Shown one piece after another: positions 1-9,529 of a DNA stretch of 64,000 bases. Numbering within the stretch: the stretch's first letter is position 1; every line of letters begins with the position of its first letter. Source of the stretch: Deltaproteobacteria bacterium (GTDB lineage: Bacteria > Desulfobacterota > Syntrophia > Syntrophales > UBA5619); contig JAKAFS010000004.1 of NCBI GenBank assembly GCA_021817825.1, forward strand, positions 1 through 64,000. Direction: 5' to 3'. A program made the translations under genes and the position numbers. The notes below the pieces were generated by a model, which searched no databases, had not been told where the DNA came from, and worked only from the letters and a program-made list of their open reading frames with translations.

Positions 1-1144
1 GGGCCGGTTCGCCCAGGGCTTTTAAGGCCGCGACGGTATTGATCTCTTCTCCCCGGACCTTGACCCGGCCTTTCAAGATCGCCGCCACCATCTTTTCCTT
101 GGGGTAGGGGCTGTAGAAGGTCTCGTCGTCCCAGCGGGAGGTGTCGAGCCCGCCGTCCGCTTTGATCGCGTATCCCCCGGTGCGGTTGTTCCAGAGGAAG
201 ATGCGGCTCCGGTCCCCCTTTTGCGAGGCGAGGTAGCCCTCCTGCACCCGCATAAGGAAGCGGCCCCACTCCTCGCGGTTCACGTAGGAAAGGGGAAAGC
301 CGCCTCCGATGTTGATGATCTCGCAACGGCCGCCCGCGGCGTTCAAGAGATGGCCCAGTTCGAGCAACTGCCCGAGGACGGCCAGGTAGGGGGCGAGGTC
401 CGCGATCTGGGAGCCGATGTGGGTGTGGAAGCCGAGGAGCCGGACATGGGGATGGCCCCCCAACGTTTTCAGGAAGGCCGGGATCTCCTCCACGTAGGTC
501 CCGAACTTGGTCCACTTGCCGGCGGTGAAGATCGCCTCGGCCGTGACGCGACCCAGCTCGAAGCCGCTGACCCTCAGGACCACCCGGGGGCTTCTGTTCA
601 TCTCCCTGGCGATCCGGGAAACCAGTTGGAACTCCTCGATGCTGTCGGCCACGATCAGCATGTCCGTCTCGATGGCCTTGGCAATGAGGAAGTCCTCCTT
701 GCAGTTGCCGTTGAGGTCGAGTTCCTCCGGCGGGGCACCGGCTTCCAAGGCGCAGCGCGTCTCATAGGGGGAGGCCACGTCGATGCCGGCCCCTTCCTGG
801 ACGACGATCTTGAATACCGCCGGATGGGCGCAGGCCTTGGCGGCAAAGCGGATGTGGCCTTTGGGGTAGAGGTCCTTGAAGACCTGCTTGAAGGCCCGGA
901 CATTCTGCGCGATGGCGGCGCCGGAGTAGAGGTGCAGGGGAAGCTGATACCGGTTGACCCACCAGGAAAGGGGCCGGTCGGCGATCAACGCCTCCCCAGC
1001 CGCAGGGCTCAGGAGACGCCGCTCGCCCCACTCCTCTTGGGTTGCCGGTTCGGTCCCCGCGGCAGCGATGCCGGATCCCCGCAGGGCCGTGGCGCCCATG
1101 CCGATGACACTGTACTTGATGAAATCCCTGCGGTCGATGGGCAT
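1..1144 (-). CDS. Tat-exported LysA-like PLP decarboxylase (fold type III), 3' end cut by window
   Basis: This reading frame is missing from the ORF track because it runs off the window; I translated it by hand. It begins MPIDRRDFIKYSVIG, a twin-arginine (Tat) signal, followed by a diaminopimelate/ornithine-decarboxylase-type alanine-racemase-fold barrel. The PLP lysine is likely K103 in RFAAKACAHP; the family motif HTHIGSQ and a glycine-rich GGGF phosphate-binding segment follow. About 381 codons are present; the C-terminal part lies outside. The ATG is preceded by AAGGAGG at 6 nt. It starts 9 nt after the C45-family lipoprotein gene, so the two are probably cotranscribed and both act outside the cytoplasm. 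A Tat signal is unusual for LysA relatives; folding with PLP before export would explain it. The substrate is unknown: a diamine, a basic amino acid or a product of the neighbour. Confidence 0.8.
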   Translation of the reverse strand, partial: MPIDRRDFIKYSVIGMGATALRGSGIAAAGTEPATQEEWGERRLLSPAAGEALIADRPLSWWVNRYQLPLHLYSGAAIAQNVRAFKQVFKDLYPKGHIRFAAKACAHPAVFKIVVQEGAGIDVASPYETRCALEAGAPPEELDLNGNCKEDFLIAKAIETDMLIVADSIEEFQLVSRIAREMNRSPRVVLRVSGFELGRVTAEAIFTAGKWTKFGTYVEEIPAFLKTLGGHPHVRLLGFHTHIGSQIADLAPYLAVLGQLLELGHLLNAAGGRCEIINIGGGFPLSYVNREEWGRFLMRVQEGYLASQKGDRSRIFLWNNRTGGYAIKADGGLDTSRWDDETFYSPYPKEKMVAAILKGRVKVRGEEINTVAALKALGEPA

Positions 1145-1153
1145 GTGGCCTCC

Positions 1154-3025
1154 TTATGGAAAGACCTCGGCAAAGGTGAAACGCCGGTAGGTGGTGAAAG
1201 GGGCATCGAGGACCTTTTGAACCAGGTCCTCCTTGGCCAGGGCGAACTCCCGGCTGTTGGGATACCAGAGGAGGCTGAACTCGGTCGTGCCGGAATACTC
1301 CTTGGAGGTGGAGGCGGCACGCAAGAGCTCGATCACCTCCGGGGTGCCCACGGTCCGCCCCTGGTCCCGGTACTGGGCCACCAGGTTCAGCATGTCCCGA
1401 AACCGGTAGTCGGCGGGCTCCACCGTGGCGTGATAGCCGTGGACGTTGCCGACCGCCCGTTCGTTGGGCGGCGTCCCCTGGTATTTGTAGTAATTGTTCG
1501 TCGTCAAGATGCTGTAGGCGTCGCCGGGGGCGAAATCCACGGGCGCTCGCAGGGCCCAGCCGTAGGAATCGGCTTCGTAGGTGGACGAGGGAGCGCTCGG
1601 CTGGCCCGCCAGATAGGGGGTCGAAACAGGGGTATTGAAGCCCACGGCGCGGGTCGCAGGCAGCGCGCCCCAGAGGGCCACCGCCCCGGCCACGGTGCTC
1701 GCGGCCTGTAGGGCTTCCCGGTAGTAGAGCGAGTAGTCCAGGATATTGGCGGCATCCCAATTGGAAATGGAGAGGGAGGACTGGGCCTGGATAACCAGGC
1801 CGTCTTCGTTCATGCCGTGGTAGGTGCCGTAATAGCCCGGCCAGTCGATGCCGACGGTCTTTTTCTTGCCGCTCGCCGCCGGCGGCGTGGTGGCGATGAT
1901 GAGCGCGCTGTTGACGGTCATCTTGTGCAGGTCGTTCTCGCCGTCGTTGTTCTTGCCGTGGATCAGTGCCCCGTTAAGCTCGCTGTTCTGCGTCCAGTCC
2001 CCCCAGAACACGGCGCTCGTGCAGGTGCGATAGTTGAGGCCCTTGCCTTTCTCCGGTGACAGGGACGCCAGGAGAAAGCGGCTTTTCGTCCGCGACGGGG
2101 CGGCGGCCAGGGGCCAGAACGGGGAGCCGTGCAGGACCCAGAACCGCAGGATGGCGATGTTGTTGTGGAGGATCAGGTCGTCCCGGGTGAGCGGCCGTCC
2201 CAAGGCGGCGACGGTGATATTGGCGCCGCCGTCCTGCATGCCCTGGAGCATGGCGTCGGCTTCGCCGGCATAGGGGGCATTGCCGGCGGCATGGGTCTGG
2301 AGGTACTGCAAGACTTCCTCGTAGCGGGAAACGGACTGGGCGAAGTAGGCCAGATCGACGTAGTTGATGAAATCGACGATCTGGGGACCCACCAGATAGC
2401 CGTGGCAGTAGGCCCGCTCGGCAGGCGTCCCCCACAATTGCAGGACCTTCTGCCCCCGGATGGTCGTGAGCTTCCCGCCGCCTGTCCCGTTGGCAACGGT
2501 CCGGTCCGCCGTGGGATAGGGGGTGGGCGAGGTCAGGGTCAGATCGATGCCGGAGGTCGTCTTCCCCTCCGCCACCGTGACAGGGGGCAAGTGAAGATTG
2601 GCGGCCGTTTGGTGCCAGCCCGTAGGCTCGGCGTAATCGGCGTGGTTGACGCCCCCGTCGCCGTTGACGTCCACCCAGGCCCAGACCGCATAGCTGCCCG
2701 GGGCAAGCGCCAGCGTATAGTTTCCCGGTTCGGAAAGCCGGACAGACGCGGCCACCCAGGCCGATTGCGTCGGGCGCGCCTCGGTTTCGACCACCCGGAG
2801 CTTCGCCTTGTTTGCTTCGGGGATGGCCAGGACGTAGATGGTCCCGGTCTGGGAGCCGGGCACCGAGACGGTTCCGGAAATGTAGCCGGGCGCGGACAGG
2901 GAGCCGCTGCAGCCGATCAGCAGTCCCAGGAGCATCAGGGCTGGGACGATGAAGGCGATCCAGGAGCTGCGAGGGGGGAACAAAACCAAGCCGCGTGCAT
3001 GAGTTGCTTCCGAATCGATGTCCAT
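1154..3025 (-). CDS. C45-family (acyl-CoA:6-APA acyltransferase-like) Ntn-hydrolase lipoprotein
   Basis: The protein has 623 residues. A basic N-terminus and hydrophobic helix end in the lipobox LLIGC (Cys39), so it should be a membrane-anchored lipoprotein. Residues about 45-165 form a beta-rich module (GYISGTVSVPGS...) containing a calcium-loop-like stretch DVNGDGGVNHAD. From about residue 195 it resembles peptidase family C45: YCHGYLVG, then RTCTSAVFWGDWT with the putative autocatalytic nucleophile Cys335, then GKNNDGEN and a Gly/Tyr-rich segment. Members cut or form amide bonds to acyl groups after self-cleavage before the Cys. The start has AAAGGCGG upstream. The next gene is a Tat-exported PLP decarboxylase, so this enzyme may release its substrate. 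The family call is reasonably firm; the substrate is unknown. Confidence 0.75.
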   Translation of the reverse strand: MDIDSEATHARGLVLFPPRSSWIAFIVPALMLLGLLIGCSGSLSAPGYISGTVSVPGSQTGTIYVLAIPEANKAKLRVVETEARPTQSAWVAASVRLSEPGNYTLALAPGSYAVWAWVDVNGDGGVNHADYAEPTGWHQTAANLHLPPVTVAEGKTTSGIDLTLTSPTPYPTADRTVANGTGGGKLTTIRGQKVLQLWGTPAERAYCHGYLVGPQIVDFINYVDLAYFAQSVSRYEEVLQYLQTHAAGNAPYAGEADAMLQGMQDGGANITVAALGRPLTRDDLILHNNIAILRFWVLHGSPFWPLAAAPSRTKSRFLLASLSPEKGKGLNYRTCTSAVFWGDWTQNSELNGALIHGKNNDGENDLHKMTVNSALIIATTPPAASGKKKTVGIDWPGYYGTYHGMNEDGLVIQAQSSLSISNWDAANILDYSLYYREALQAASTVAGAVALWGALPATRAVGFNTPVSTPYLAGQPSAPSSTYEADSYGWALRAPVDFAPGDAYSILTTNNYYKYQGTPPNERAVGNVHGYHATVEPADYRFRDMLNLVAQYRDQGRTVGTPEVIELLRAASTSKEYSGTTEFSLLWYPNSREFALAKEDLVQKVLDAPFTTYRRFTFAEVFP

Positions 3026-4501: not shown

Positions 4502-5436
4502 CCCAGGACGGTTCCCGGCGCGATCCGGACGCCCCGGAGAAAGGCTTCGATCGGCAACCGCTTTTTCCCCGCCATTTGGACCTCCCGCAGGAGGACGTAC
4601 CCGCCCGCGGCCGCTATGGGCAACCCGTCCGGCAGCGGCTCCATGATTGTCCCCGGTTTTATCGCGTGTTCCGCCGGTTTTGCTGCGGCGCTGAAAATTT
4701 TCCACTGTTTTTCCTCCCAATACGTATAGGCGCAGGGGTCCGGGGAGAGTCCCCGGACGAGCGAGACGATGCTCCTGCAATTGTTTTTCCAATCGATCCG
4801 GCCGTCTTCCCGGGAAATCCGGGGGGCGAAAGTGGCGAGCCCGTGGTCCTGGGGACGGGGCCGGAGCGTGCCCGACTGGAGCATGGCCAGGGTCATCAGG
4901 AGCAACTCCGCGCCCAGCGCCGCCAGCCGGGCGTGAAGGTCGCCGGAGGTCTCCTCGGCCCCGATGGGTGTCTCCTCCTGTAGGAGGATCGCGCCGGAAT
5001 CGATCCCCTCTTCCATCTGCATGATCGTGACGCCGGTTCGCTCCTCCCCCTGGATCAGGGCCCGCTGGATGGGCGCCGCCCCCCGGTATTGCGGGAGAAG
5101 GGAGGGGTGGATGTTGATGCAGCCGAAGCGCGGGCCGGAGATGATCTCCCGGGGAAGGATCTGCCCGAAGGCGGCCAGGACGACGAGATCCGGCGCGAGG
5201 GAGCGGAAGACATCCAGAAAGGCCGGCTCCCGAACCTTTTCGGGCTGTAGGATCGGGATGCCGAGGCTAAGGGCGCTGTCCTTGACCGGGGGAGCGGCGA
5301 GCGTTCGGCCCCGTCCCTGGGGGCGATCGGGCTGGGTGACGACGCCGATGACCGGGTAACCGTGACCGACCAGGGCTTCCAGGGCGGGGACGGCAAAGGC
5401 GGGCGTACCCATATAAAGGATGCGCGGTTTGACCAT
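4498..5436 (-). CDS. fmt: Methionyl-tRNA formyltransferase
   Basis: Transfers a formyl group from 10-formyl-THF to initiator Met-tRNA. The 312 residues match the usual length. The N-terminal formyltransferase domain has ILYMGTPAFAVPAL, NIHPSLLPQYRGAAPIQRAL (catalytic Asn/His region) and GVTIMQMEEGIDSGAI; the C-terminal OB-like domain binds tRNA. It lies 12 nt downstream of priA and its stop overlaps the proposed rsmB start. In many bacteria def (peptide deformylase) sits between priA and fmt; it is absent here and must be elsewhere. Confidence 0.96.
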   Translation of the reverse strand: MVKPRILYMGTPAFAVPALEALVGHGYPVIGVVTQPDRPQGRGRTLAAPPVKDSALSLGIPILQPEKVREPAFLDVFRSLAPDLVVLAAFGQILPREIISGPRFGCINIHPSLLPQYRGAAPIQRALIQGEERTGVTIMQMEEGIDSGAILLQEETPIGAEETSGDLHARLAALGAELLLMTLAMLQSGTLRPRPQDHGLATFAPRISREDGRIDWKNNCRSIVSLVRGLSPDPCAYTYWEEKQWKIFSAAAKPAEHAIKPGTIMEPLPDGLPIAAAGGYVLLREVQMAGKKRLPIEAFLRGVRIAPGTVLG

Positions 5437-5448
5437 CTCTTGTTCCTC

Positions 5449-7875
5449 CTACATGAAATTGACGGGATCCACGTCCACCAGGATCTCCAGGCCGTCATGG
5501 CCGGTTTTCTCCAGAAGGTTTTGCACCAGTAGCCGAAGCGCGTCGCTCCGGCTGCCGCGCAAAAGGAGCTGCCAGCGGTACCGACCCCTGATCCGGGCCA
5601 GGGGCGATTCGGCAGGGCCGATCACCTCCACGCTTCCCCCGGCCAGGCTCTTGGCGAGTTCCCGGGCGCGCGCCCCGATCCGGGCCACGGCCCTTTTTCC
5701 CTCTTCCTGTTTCAAACTCGAAAAATGGAGCCCCACCAGGCGGGAGAAGGGGGGGTAGTCAAGCTGGCGCCGCAGGGGCAGCTCTTCCGCGTAGAATCCT
5801 TCGTAGTCGTGCAGTTGCGCTTTGGTGATGACGTAGTGGTCCGGGTTGAAGGTCTGGATCACGACCCGTCCGGGCCGATCGCCCCGGCCGCCCCGGCCCG
5901 CCACCTGGGTGAGGATCTGAAAGGTCCGCTCGGCGGCGCGGAAGTCCGGCAGGTTCAGGGAGGCGTCGGCGGCTACGACGCCCACCAGGGTGATGCCCGG
6001 GAAGTCGTGGCCCTTGGTGATCATCTGCGTGCCCACGAGGATATCGATCTCCCGGCGGTCGAGCCGGCGGAGGAACTGCTCCGCTTCTCCCTTCCGGGCG
6101 GTGGTGTCCGAATCCATCCGGGCGATCCGGGCGGCGGGAAACAGCTTCGCCGCCTCTTCCGCGATCCGTTCCGTTCCGGCCCCCTGGCTGCGGATGCGGC
6201 TTCCCCGGCATTTGGGGCAGGATTCGGCATTCCGGATCGTGAAATCGCAGTGGTGGCACTTCAGGAGGCCGATGCCGGCGTGCTGGGTGAGCGCGATGTC
6301 GCAGTTCGGGCAGGCAAAGACGTGACCGCAGTCGGGGCAGAAAAGATAGGTGTGAAATCCCCGCCGGTTGAGAAACAGGAGGGTCTGGTTTCCGGCGGCC
6401 AGATTTTTCCCGATCGCCTCGCAAAGGACGCGGGAAAAAAGCGGCGTCAACCCCTGCTCGTTTCTTTCCTTCCGAAGATCGACCACCTCGATCCGGGGCA
6501 TCGGCCGGTCGTCGATCCGGGCCGGGAGGGTCAGATAGCGGTAGCGGCCTTCGGCGGCATGCCGGTAGCTCTGGATGGCCGGCGTGGCGGAACCGAGGAT
6601 GACCGTGGCCTTCGCCAATTGCCCTTTCACCAGGGCCAGGTCCCGGGCGTTGTAGCGCAGGCGGTCGTCCTGTTTATACGAGGAATCGTGTTCCTCGTCG
6701 GCGATGATCAGCCGGAGGTTCTGCACCGGGGCGAAGAGTGCCGACCGGGCGCCGACGACGACCCGCACCTCGCCGCGCCGGATCCGCCGCCACTGGTCGT
6801 ACCGGGCGCTCAGGGAGATACCGCTGTGGAGGACCGCGATCTCCCGCTCCGGAAAGCGGCTGCGGATCCGGGAGAGGAGCTGCGCCGTCAGGGCGATCTC
6901 GGGGACCAGATAAATGACCCCGCCTTCGCCCCGGAGGACCTCGGCGATGGAACGCAGATAGACCTCCGTCTTGCCGCTCCCGGTCACGCCGTGGAGCAGG
7001 CAGGGGGAAAAGTCGCCCGCGGCGAGGCAGCCGCGGATCTCTTCCAGCGCCGCCTCCTGGGCCTCGTTCAGCGGGAACCAGCTCCCCTCTTTTCCCAGCG
7101 GCGAGGCCGCCCCGGGTCCGCGGGCAACTTCCTTTTCGTAAAGACGGATGAGGCTTTTTTCCGCGAGGGTGCGCAGGCAGGCGGCGGCGTTCTTGCAGCA
7201 GGCGTTGAGCTCCCGGAGGGGCCGGTCGCCCTGGGTTCGGAGCTGGTCGATCAGGGCCGCCTGTTTGGCCGTCAGGGAGGGGGCCGTGGGGAGATCCGCG
7301 GGGAGCAGACCGGCCCATTTTTCCCGGCGCACCCGGACGGCCGAGCGGTTCAGCCGCTCCTGGGACAGGACGAGGCCGGCGTCTTCGAGAAAGCGCAGGT
7401 CTTCGTAAAGGGCGTTTTTTCCCAAGATTTTGCGGAGGCGGCTCAAAGAGAGCCCTGCGGGAAAGCGCTCCAGGCAAGCCAGGATCTCCATCCGGCCCGG
7501 GGAGAGACGCTGTTCGGCCACCGGGGCGTCGGGGGCAAGGCTGATCCACCGGTCGCTCTTGACGTCCAGCCCGCCGGGCAGCAGTTCGCCGAGGACCCTG
7601 CCCAGGGGGTGGAGGTAGTAACGGGAGATCCATTCGTAAAAAGCGAGGTCCCCGGCGTCAAAAAGGGGTTCTTGGTCGGGGATGTCGATAATTTCCTTGA
7701 TGTTCTGATCGCAGGCGGCCTCGGAGAGGACGGCGAGGATGAAACCGGTCACGCGTCGTTTGCCGAAGGGGACCAGGACCCGCTTTCCCACCGCGAGGCC
7801 GGCGGCCAGCGCCTCGGGAACGGCGTAGGTAAAGGTTTTTGCAGAGGGGATTTGGATCGCAACCTTGACGAACAT
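5449..7875 (-). CDS. priA: Primosomal protein N' (replication restart helicase PriA)
   Basis: A 3'-5' SF2 DNA helicase that reloads the replisome at stalled forks. At 808 residues it is somewhat longer than E. coli PriA. The N-terminal 3'BD (KTFTYAVP) and winged-helix regions come first, then Walker A in LLHGVTGSGKTEVYLR, the Walker B box IIADEEHDSSYKQ, and a zinc-binding insert with paired cysteines (CPDCGHVFACPNCD, CHHCDFTI, CPKCRG). The helicase C-terminal motifs QVAGRGGRGDRPG follow. ATG start with GAGGA about 9 nt upstream. It leads the priA-fmt-rsmB unit, insulated upstream by the dksA terminator. Confidence 0.97.
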   Translation of the reverse strand: MFVKVAIQIPSAKTFTYAVPEALAAGLAVGKRVLVPFGKRRVTGFILAVLSEAACDQNIKEIIDIPDQEPLFDAGDLAFYEWISRYYLHPLGRVLGELLPGGLDVKSDRWISLAPDAPVAEQRLSPGRMEILACLERFPAGLSLSRLRKILGKNALYEDLRFLEDAGLVLSQERLNRSAVRVRREKWAGLLPADLPTAPSLTAKQAALIDQLRTQGDRPLRELNACCKNAAACLRTLAEKSLIRLYEKEVARGPGAASPLGKEGSWFPLNEAQEAALEEIRGCLAAGDFSPCLLHGVTGSGKTEVYLRSIAEVLRGEGGVIYLVPEIALTAQLLSRIRSRFPEREIAVLHSGISLSARYDQWRRIRRGEVRVVVGARSALFAPVQNLRLIIADEEHDSSYKQDDRLRYNARDLALVKGQLAKATVILGSATPAIQSYRHAAEGRYRYLTLPARIDDRPMPRIEVVDLRKERNEQGLTPLFSRVLCEAIGKNLAAGNQTLLFLNRRGFHTYLFCPDCGHVFACPNCDIALTQHAGIGLLKCHHCDFTIRNAESCPKCRGSRIRSQGAGTERIAEEAAKLFPAARIARMDSDTTARKGEAEQFLRRLDRREIDILVGTQMITKGHDFPGITLVGVVAADASLNLPDFRAAERTFQILTQVAGRGGRGDRPGRVVIQTFNPDHYVITKAQLHDYEGFYAEELPLRRQLDYPPFSRLVGLHFSSLKQEEGKRAVARIGARARELAKSLAGGSVEVIGPAESPLARIRGRYRWQLLLRGSRSDALRLLVQNLLEKTGHDGLEILVDVDPVNFM

Positions 7876-7889
7876 CCGGTATGGTCCTC

Positions 7890-7934
7890 AAAAAAAACCC
7901 CCTCACCGCTCCCGGGCAAGGGAGATCGAGGGGG
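7890..7934 (-). terminator. Rho-independent terminator of dksA
   Basis: On the minus strand CCCCCTC pairs with GAGGGGG, with an inner CTCCC/GGGAG stem and a 6-nt loop, followed directly by eight T. It lies about 50 nt after the dksA stop and just upstream of priA, so dksA is a separate transcript. Confidence 0.9.
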
Positions 7935-7984
7935 ATCGGAAGAGGCGGCAGCGCCGCCGCTCGGGACTGCGTGAAGTGGGGTGG

Positions 7985-8386
7985 CTATTCGCCCTTGAGT
8001 TTTTCCATCTTCTCCTGCTTCATCTTGCAGTCGATGCAGAGGGTGGTCACGGGTCTTGCCATCAGCCGTTTTTCGGAAATCGGGCCCGCGCAGACATCGC
8101 AGATCCCGAATTCACCGTCGTCGATCCGCTTGATCGCCTCCTGCATCTTCAAGATCAGTTTCCGCTCCCGGTCCCGGATCCGAAGCTCGAAGTTCCGGTC
8201 CGACTCCAGGGAGGCCCGGTCGTTGGGGTCCGGATAGTTTTCCTTCGTTCCGTAGGTCATTTCCGACACGGTTTTCCCCGCTTCGTCCAGGAGTTCGTTG
8301 ATCTTCTGGGAAAGCATATGCCTGAAAAATGCCGCCTTTTCCGGCGTCATTGAAGGTTTCGCTGTCGTTTTGGACACGGCCGCCAT
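7985..8386 (-). CDS. dksA: DksA/TraR-family RNA polymerase-binding transcription factor
   Basis: Small (133 residues) regulator that enters the RNA polymerase secondary channel and works with ppGpp. The coiled-coil tip acidic motif is present (DPNDRASLESD), as is the C4 zinc finger CDVC-x17-CIDC. The ATG at 8386 is preferred over the ORF-track start because AGGAGAGAAA lies directly in front of it. It is monocistronic by its terminator, with the polyamine genes upstream on the same strand. The acidic tip suggests a true DksA, not a short TraR. Confidence 0.93.
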   Translation of the reverse strand: MAAVSKTTAKPSMTPEKAAFFRHMLSQKINELLDEAGKTVSEMTYGTKENYPDPNDRASLESDRNFELRIRDRERKLILKMQEAIKRIDDGEFGICDVCAGPISEKRLMARPVTTLCIDCKMKQEKMEKLKGE

Positions 8387-8476
8387 TTTCTCTCCTGTCC
8401 TGAGGGTCAATTTAAGGGATCACCTCTTACATGATGAAGCTCCATTTGTAAAGAAAAAAATGAAGCCGGTCCCGGT

Positions 8477-9529
8477 TTATTGTTTTCCGGCGGGAATCTC
8501 GCGGCTGAGGCAGTGGAGGGTCCCCAGTCCCCAGATGAGATCGATGGCGCTGATGCCGATCACCTTGCGATCGGGGAACAGCTCGCTGAAAATGCCCAGG
8601 GCCTCGTAATCCCGCGGGTCATTGAAGGTCGGCACCAGCACGGCGCCTTTGACGAAGATGAAATTGACGTAGCTGGCCGGGAGGCGCAGGTCCTCGAAAT
8701 CCAGCCGATCGGGCAGGGGGATGGTCACCACGTTCAGGGCTGCGCCGTTTCCCAGGCGGACGCCCTGCAGCCGTTCCAGATTCTCCGCCAGGTGTTTGCT
8801 GTTCTTGTCCTTGCGGTTGGTTTCCCGGCAGGCGACCACGGTGTGACCGTTCACGAAGCGGCAGATGTCGTCCACGTGGCCGTGCGTATCGTCCCCCGCG
8901 ATCCCCTTGCCCAGCCAAATGACTTGGGTCACGCCGAGATATTCCCGGAAGACCGCTTCGTAATCGCCCTTCGTGAACCCCGGGTTGCGCACCTGAACCC
9001 GGCTGTCGAGCAGGCATTCCTCCGTCGTCACCAGGGCGCCGCAGCCGTTGCCGTCGATGGCGCCGCCCTCCAGAACGACCGGTTTTTCATTGTAGAGGAC
9101 TTGGGTCAGGGGGAGACCGAGACCGTCCGCCACCGCTGAGGGAATCCCTTGGTCTTTCCTGTGGTTGCCGTATTTCGCCCAGCCGTTGAACCGAAATTGC
9201 AGGGCCTCCCGCGTGCCGTCCGGCCGCTTCACGATGATCGGCCCGGAATCGCGCATCCAACTCCGGTTGGTGTCTTTGATGAAGAAACGGACCTGCTCCA
9301 GATCGACGTGGGCCCGGCTGAGGATATCCGCCACTTTGGCCTGCTGTTCCCCGGTCTTGACGACGAGCAGCGCCGGTTCATGGGCGGCGACCTTCTTGAT
9401 GATTTCCGCAAAGGCCCAGACCACGGCGGCATATTTGCCCGGCCAGTCGCGCCCCTCGTAGGGGAACGCCAGGAGCGTCGCCGCGTGCCTTTCCCATTCG
9501 GCGGGCAGTCTGCGTGAGGGTTTCTTCAT
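8477..9529 (-). CDS. aguA: Agmatine deiminase
   Basis: Hydrolyses agmatine to N-carbamoylputrescine and ammonia. Guanidino-modifying (pentein) fold: WERHAATLLAFPYEGRDW at the N-terminus, DTNRSWMRDSGPI, VLEGGAIDGNG, GKGIAGDDTHGHVDD and the C-terminal catalytic Cys in GLGTLHCLSREIP. Trimmed to the ATG at 9529 it has 350 residues, usual for AguA; the ORF-track extension runs into aguB out of frame. It begins 7 nt after the aguB stop, so the two steps from agmatine to putrescine are encoded together. No arginine decarboxylase is visible in the window. Confidence 0.95.
   Translation of the reverse strand: MKKPSRRLPAEWERHAATLLAFPYEGRDWPGKYAAVVWAFAEIIKKVAAHEPALLVVKTGEQQAKVADILSRAHVDLEQVRFFIKDTNRSWMRDSGPIIVKRPDGTREALQFRFNGWAKYGNHRKDQGIPSAVADGLGLPLTQVLYNEKPVVLEGGAIDGNGCGALVTTEECLLDSRVQVRNPGFTKGDYEAVFREYLGVTQVIWLGKGIAGDDTHGHVDDICRFVNGHTVVACRETNRKDKNSKHLAENLERLQGVRLGNGAALNVVTIPLPDRLDFEDLRLPASYVNFIFVKGAVLVPTFNDPRDYEALGIFSELFPDRKVIGISAIDLIWGLGTLHCLSREIPAGKQ

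Follow-up and report, generated by a model that had tools for sequence, protein, structure and literature searches.

Periplasmic PLP chemistry, as currently known, consists mainly of pyoverdine tailoring and of racemases. The racemases include the periplasmic broad-spectrum enzyme BsrV of V. cholerae, which has the alanine-racemase fold, and the pyoverdine-tailoring enzymes PvdN and PtaA are of another PLP fold (type I). Both are Tat-exported periplasmic enzymes of pyoverdine maturation that act downstream of the Ntn-type acylase PvdQ, and their export through Tat requires PLP binding or carries PLP along (PMC6206403). P. putida Alr is likewise a periplasmic broad-spectrum racemase of the alanine-racemase fold (PMC6034422). 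A preliminary description of the locus studied here held that PLP enzymes of this fold are normally cytoplasmic, a statement that needs qualifying in view of Tat-exported PvdN/PtaA and of the periplasmic racemases of this fold (PMC6206403, PMC6034422). Our search of the literature accessible without subscription for Tat-exported decarboxylases of this fold returned only engineered fusions or unrelated work.

Several decarboxylases share the alanine-racemase fold. D-ornithine/D-lysine decarboxylase (DokD) and DAPDC both act on D-centres, and we know of no Tat signal in DokD and of no export signal in the siderophore enzymes FigC, SbnH and AcsE. The latter three are citryl-amino-acid decarboxylases (PMC7857480). 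Here we describe a pair of genes at the edge of a 64,000-nucleotide stretch of DNA (the window) from a Syntrophales MAG, encoding a putative Tat-exported decarboxylase of this fold and a C45-type Ntn-hydrolase lipoprotein.

Gene coupling and the C45-type lipoprotein

Both genes were confirmed on the minus strand (Table 1), where exactly 9 nt lie between the C45 hydrolase gene and the decarboxylase gene, as described previously. The minus-strand junction has the sequence TTTCCATAAGGAGGCCACATG, and because the TAA that ends the hydrolase gene shares bases with the decarboxylase's Shine-Dalgarno AGGAGG, we read the two genes as translationally coupled. As the first base of the window is also the first base of its contig (C96), the decarboxylase gene is truncated. 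Its missing C-terminal part was found on contig C100 of the same genome (G000:C100), with 158 of 159 bp identical in the overlap, and the joined protein comprises about 529 aa, about 150 of which are contributed by C100. Further downstream on C100, past a VapBC-like pair, a gene encodes a lipoprotein that weakly matches a carbon-nitrogen hydrolase domain (L038:8052-9203; 23.3 bits) and is a candidate for another extracytoplasmic amidase.

Table 1. Features of the window locus and genes adjoining the decarboxylase in other lineages.
Feature	Position	Strand	Details
Tat-signal alanine-racemase-fold PLP decarboxylase, N-terminal 381 aa	2..1144	(-)	PF02784 120.4 bits; TIGR01048 156.6 bits, below cut-off
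Predicted Tat signal peptide MPIDRRDFIKYSVIGMGATAL	1081..1144	(-)	RR = residues 5-6, bases 1127-1132; from sequence
PLP-binding lysine Lys103 (FAAKACAHP)	836..838	(-)	invariant column K104 of alignment A4
Shine-Dalgarno AGGAGG of decarboxylase	1149..1154	(-)	overlaps C45 stop TAA (1154-1156); from sequence
C45-type Ntn-hydrolase lipoprotein, 623 aa	1154..3025	(-)	lipobox, N-terminal beta-rich region, C45 domain from about residue 183
Predicted autoproteolytic nucleophile Cys335 (CTSAVFWGD)	2021..2023	(-)	invariant in alignment A6
Lipobox cysteine Cys39 (LLIGC-SGS)	2909..2911	(-)	from sequence; lipobox also in G001 and G006 homologues
Neighbour in L054 (Syntrophales)			S33-type lipoprotein
Neighbour in L055 (Syntrophales)			U32 peptidase, overlaps decarboxylase start
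Neighbour in L059			Na:alanine symporter
Neighbour in L064 (Desulfocapsa MAG)	L064:457-1923		Tat-signal alanine racemase, TIGR00492 192.6 bits, above cut-off; overlaps Tat decarboxylase gene
Neighbour in L065			secreted class-C beta-lactamase-like hydrolase
Neighbours in L067/L068 (Holophagaceae)	about 5318-9371		M14 carboxypeptidase, then isoaspartyl dipeptidase IadA, then non-Tat decarboxylase
Neighbour in L072			Amidohydro_3
Neighbour in Bauldia			5'-nucleotidase

The hydrolase begins with a hydrophobic stretch followed by the lipobox LLIGC, which fits the rule [LVI][ASTVI][GAS]C (LIGC), and its profile matches are confined to the C45 autoproteolytic hydrolase model NF040521 (residues 199-457; 50.8 bits, E 1.5e-13), where it remains under the curated cut-off of 85. 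The homologue from the related genome G001 (67% identity) likewise stays under this cut-off (50.3 bits), and the homologue from G006 is about 44-45% identical to the window protein. The pattern C335-T-S ... N359 is invariant among the C45 homologues of alignment A6 (G001, G006 and three distant ones), and the invariant Cys and Asn would be expected of a Cys-nucleophile Ntn-hydrolase. The protein thus shares with the NF040521 family the nucleophile motif CTS and the conserved Asn region that follows it, and differs from the family in its sub-cutoff score, an extra N-terminal domain and the lipobox. The label C45-type lipoprotein, given in the preliminary description, is reasonable for what is formally a divergent member. 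A search of the PDB found no sequence relative of the protein, and structure prediction from its single sequence gave an uninformative pLDDT of 32. In G013, a broken homologue (L042:7607-8334, contig G013:C59) adjoins a gene for an exported M20-like amidohydrolase.

The decarboxylase clade and its Tat signal

Export signals had been claimed for both gene products, and a twin-arginine signal on the decarboxylase was found alongside the lipobox on the C45 protein. The decarboxylase N-terminus carries an (S/D)RRxF(I/L)K motif followed by a hydrophobic stretch, a feature conserved among relatives, and TatC is encoded in the window genome. The Pfam TAT_signal model scores the window protein below its threshold (11.3 versus 22.7 bits), and an Arg lies inside the hydrophobic stretch (ALRGSG), which is free of such a residue in the relatives.

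A survey of related genomes plus a single scan covering about 85,000 species genomes yielded about 21 members of this protein clade besides the window protein, with 43-100% identity to the query. Their hosts belong to about eight phyla and comprise Syntrophales and other Desulfobacterota, Alphaproteobacteria (Bauldia, Methyloceanibacter), WOR-1/Saganbacteria, Methylococcus, Eremiobacterota, Bacteroidales and Holophagaceae. Annotated plasmids contained no clade member and only relatives at 23-25% identity (LysA, Y4yA family), and Y4yA, considered as a family name, was not adopted at this level of identity. In a maximum likelihood tree of 21 clade members, including the window protein, and nine LysA-type sequences, all 21 members form one deep clade outside the LysA-type sequences (branch 2.7, support 100/100). 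A Tat signal is present in 12 of the 21, from Desulfobacterota and Alphaproteobacteria, and the N-termini of the other nine begin directly at the catalytic domain. The signal-bearing members fall into two groups of the tree, which would be consistent with one or two origins of the signal. Homologues lacking the twin-arginine signal, which the preliminary description regarded as speaking against its reading, do therefore exist, but Tat export of the window decarboxylase survives as the reading of its own N-terminus.

The AlphaFold2 model of the full-length Syntrophales homologue L051 (pLDDT 83, pTM 0.85) is closest in fold to D-ornithine/D-lysine decarboxylase and DAPDC (best match E 8e-35, TM 0.67/0.77). 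DokD (NF052544; PDB 8d4i, 9cpz) provides the best fold match, but sequence identity is only about 20% and the NF052544 score of 129 bits is far from its cut-off of 700. The score with the FslC model NF041039 is only 56 bits, with a cut-off of 500. LysA is the best NCBIfam match of the decarboxylase, with TIGR01048 scores of 232.7 bits for L051 and 156.6 bits for the window fragment against a cut-off of 297.9. The fold, the PLP lysine, EPGR and the catalytic Cys are common to both. Unlike LysA, the decarboxylase has about 75 extra residues before EPGR and a Tat signal, contains CFSGD in place of CESGD, has lost the Arg and Tyr of the specificity helix and falls in the separate, fully supported clade. 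The description as a Tat-exported, LysA-like decarboxylase thus stands with respect to signal and fold, but LysA identity was rejected.

All catalytic positions are kept across the 20 aligned clade members: K104, H241, GGG, E386, R389, C459, D463 and Y490 are invariant, and the PLP lysine, both histidines, the glycine loop, EPGR and the catalytic Cys, Asp and Tyr are retained in every one. By its residues, the window gene product is a catalytically complete member of a clade distinct from LysA. The positions that read the substrate tell a different story, as the specificity-helix Arg is found in 0/20 clade members versus 7/7 LysA-type sequences, and next to the catalytic Cys all 20 carry Phe or Tyr (Glu in 0/20) where the LysA-type sequences carry Glu (7/7). 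The helix arginine is assigned to binding of the carboxylate of DAP, and the acid beside the Cys to contact with the side-chain amino group of the substrate (PMC7857480). FigC also lacks this acid, M355 taking its place, where the window clade has Phe (PMC7857480). Because both the helix Arg and the acid are lost, DAP, lysine, ornithine and arginine are predicted to be unlikely substrates, and lysine and diaminopimelate, the substrates suggested in the preliminary description, are further disfavoured by a separate LysA or near-LysA in five of the six carrier genomes checked (residue roles from PMC7857480).

Neighbourhoods of the decarboxylase and competing readings

The C45/decarboxylase pair was seen in the window genome only. 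No C45 protein was found near the decarboxylase in about 21 other decarboxylase loci, several of them limited by contig ends, and no decarboxylase was found beside the C45 relatives in G001, G006 (where the contig ends at the C45 gene) and G013 (the broken copy). Genes matching the C45 model in G003, G015, G067 and G489 are located on contigs other than that of the decarboxylase. With adjacency absent in the relatives of either gene, this co-occurrence survey led us to reject the pair as a conserved operon. Lack of conservation was the other outcome that the preliminary description named as counting against its reading.

Other enzymes occupy the neighbouring position in other lineages (Table 1). 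In the two Holophagaceae loci, IadA and the decarboxylase overlap by 4 nt, and M14, IadA and decarboxylase genes form an apparent operon. In Desulfocapsa, the overlapping genes possibly encode a Tat-exported racemase/decarboxylase pair. Some neighbours are unrelated housekeeping genes (lysS, dus, gdhA). Amide or peptide hydrolases account for 5/15 decarboxylase-adjacent genes versus 2/30 control genes drawn from the decarboxylase loci themselves (Fisher p 0.03), and exported partners for 6/8 units with a Tat decarboxylase versus 0/6 non-Tat units (p 0.0097), an enrichment which is suggestive only, both comparisons being post hoc, with few independent units and with signals called by simple rules.

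We propose, with a probability of roughly 0.5, that the window gene encodes an enzyme that Tat delivers to the periplasm and that decarboxylates a non-basic amino acid, possibly D-configured or N-modified, in partnership with interchangeable hydrolases including the C45 lipoprotein. The enzyme would bind PLP and fold in the cytoplasm, and the folded protein would then cross the membrane by Tat, for which PvdN and PtaA provide a precedent (PMC6206403). In the periplasm, it might act on a non-basic amino acid or on a modified compound at its amino-acid end. In the same compartment, the C45 lipoprotein would hydrolyse an amide or N-acyl bond, and it may provide or complete the decarboxylase substrate. 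More generally, hydrolases or racemases of the same compartment would supply the decarboxylase substrate, C45 being the partner in the window lineage. A D-configured substrate is possible, as the nearest relatives, DAPDC and DokD, act on D-centres. PvdQ and PvdN, likewise an Ntn-hydrolase and a Tat-signal PLP enzyme, are the closest functional parallel, and pyoverdine gene clusters are unrelated to the window pair. P. putida Alr and V. cholerae BsrV share their fold with the window enzyme, but are racemases and not decarboxylases. Joint action of the two proteins outside the cytoplasm, as envisaged in the preliminary description, fits both export signals and the tight coupling, but a pathway specific to this pair is not supported, and the pair is not conserved.

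The two proteins might also both be exported without a common substrate, their adjacency being recent and due to chance and each having other partners. The absence of the pair from all of the roughly 21 other decarboxylase loci is consistent with this, as are the other genes found beside C45 relatives, among them one for a class-C beta-lactamase-like protein in G001, and the C45 genes on other contigs of carrier genomes. We nevertheless consider it rather unlikely, given the 9-nt gap, the stop/Shine-Dalgarno overlap, the matching export and the exported enzymes that also adjoin other Tat members.

Turnover of D-amino acids in the periplasm, with substrates derived from a periplasmic racemase or from peptidoglycan, is improbable as an explanation of the locus. 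The Tat-exported alanine-racemase homologue that overlaps the decarboxylase in Desulfocapsa would suit it, as would the nearest structures, D-ornithine/D-lysine decarboxylase and DAPDC, and the existence of a periplasmic racemase of this fold in P. putida (PMC6034422). However, that racemase neighbour is the single one seen, and the loss of the residues that read basic side chains makes D-Lys and D-Orn unlikely. Maturation of a lipopeptide or siderophore-like compound, in which removal of an acyl anchor by C45 would expose an amino acid for tailoring by the Tat PLP enzyme, has a close functional analogue in PvdQ with Tat-exported PvdN/PtaA (PMC6206403), and the fold includes other acyl-amino-acid decarboxylases (FigC, SbnH, AcsE; PMC7857480). 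We give it little credence, as no peptide synthetase was recognized beside the pair when ORF N-termini were read by eye and C45 is not kept with the decarboxylase elsewhere. An ordinary cytoplasmic LysA with a spurious signal, which LysA as best NCBIfam match and the failure to find another, canonical LysA in the window MAG (G000, 95.5% complete) would favour, is highly implausible given the score under the LysA cut-off, the loss of the DAP-binding residues in 20/20, the separate LysA or near-LysA of five other carriers, the Tat-type N-terminal extension in 12 members and a MAG that is only about 95% complete.

Under the preferred reading of a Tat-delivered periplasmic decarboxylase, the interchangeability of the partner between lineages makes the exported decarboxylase, and not the pair, the conserved element. 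Interest centres on the clade of exported decarboxylases, a variant within an established fold family. Tentatively, and at somewhat less than even odds, this would be an undescribed clade of Tat-delivered periplasmic alanine-racemase-fold decarboxylases that produce an amine from a non-basic amino acid, which may be D-configured or N-modified, with exported hydrolases or racemases differing by lineage. A best family match to LysA can hide the loss of DAP-binding residues, and where these are lost, counting such sequences as lysine-pathway genes is wrong. With an exported PLP decarboxylase, it also becomes a question how the cofactor is supplied and kept. If true, Tat-signal decarboxylases of one clade, occurring in two groups far apart, would extend the extracytoplasmic chemistry of bacteria to the formation of amines.
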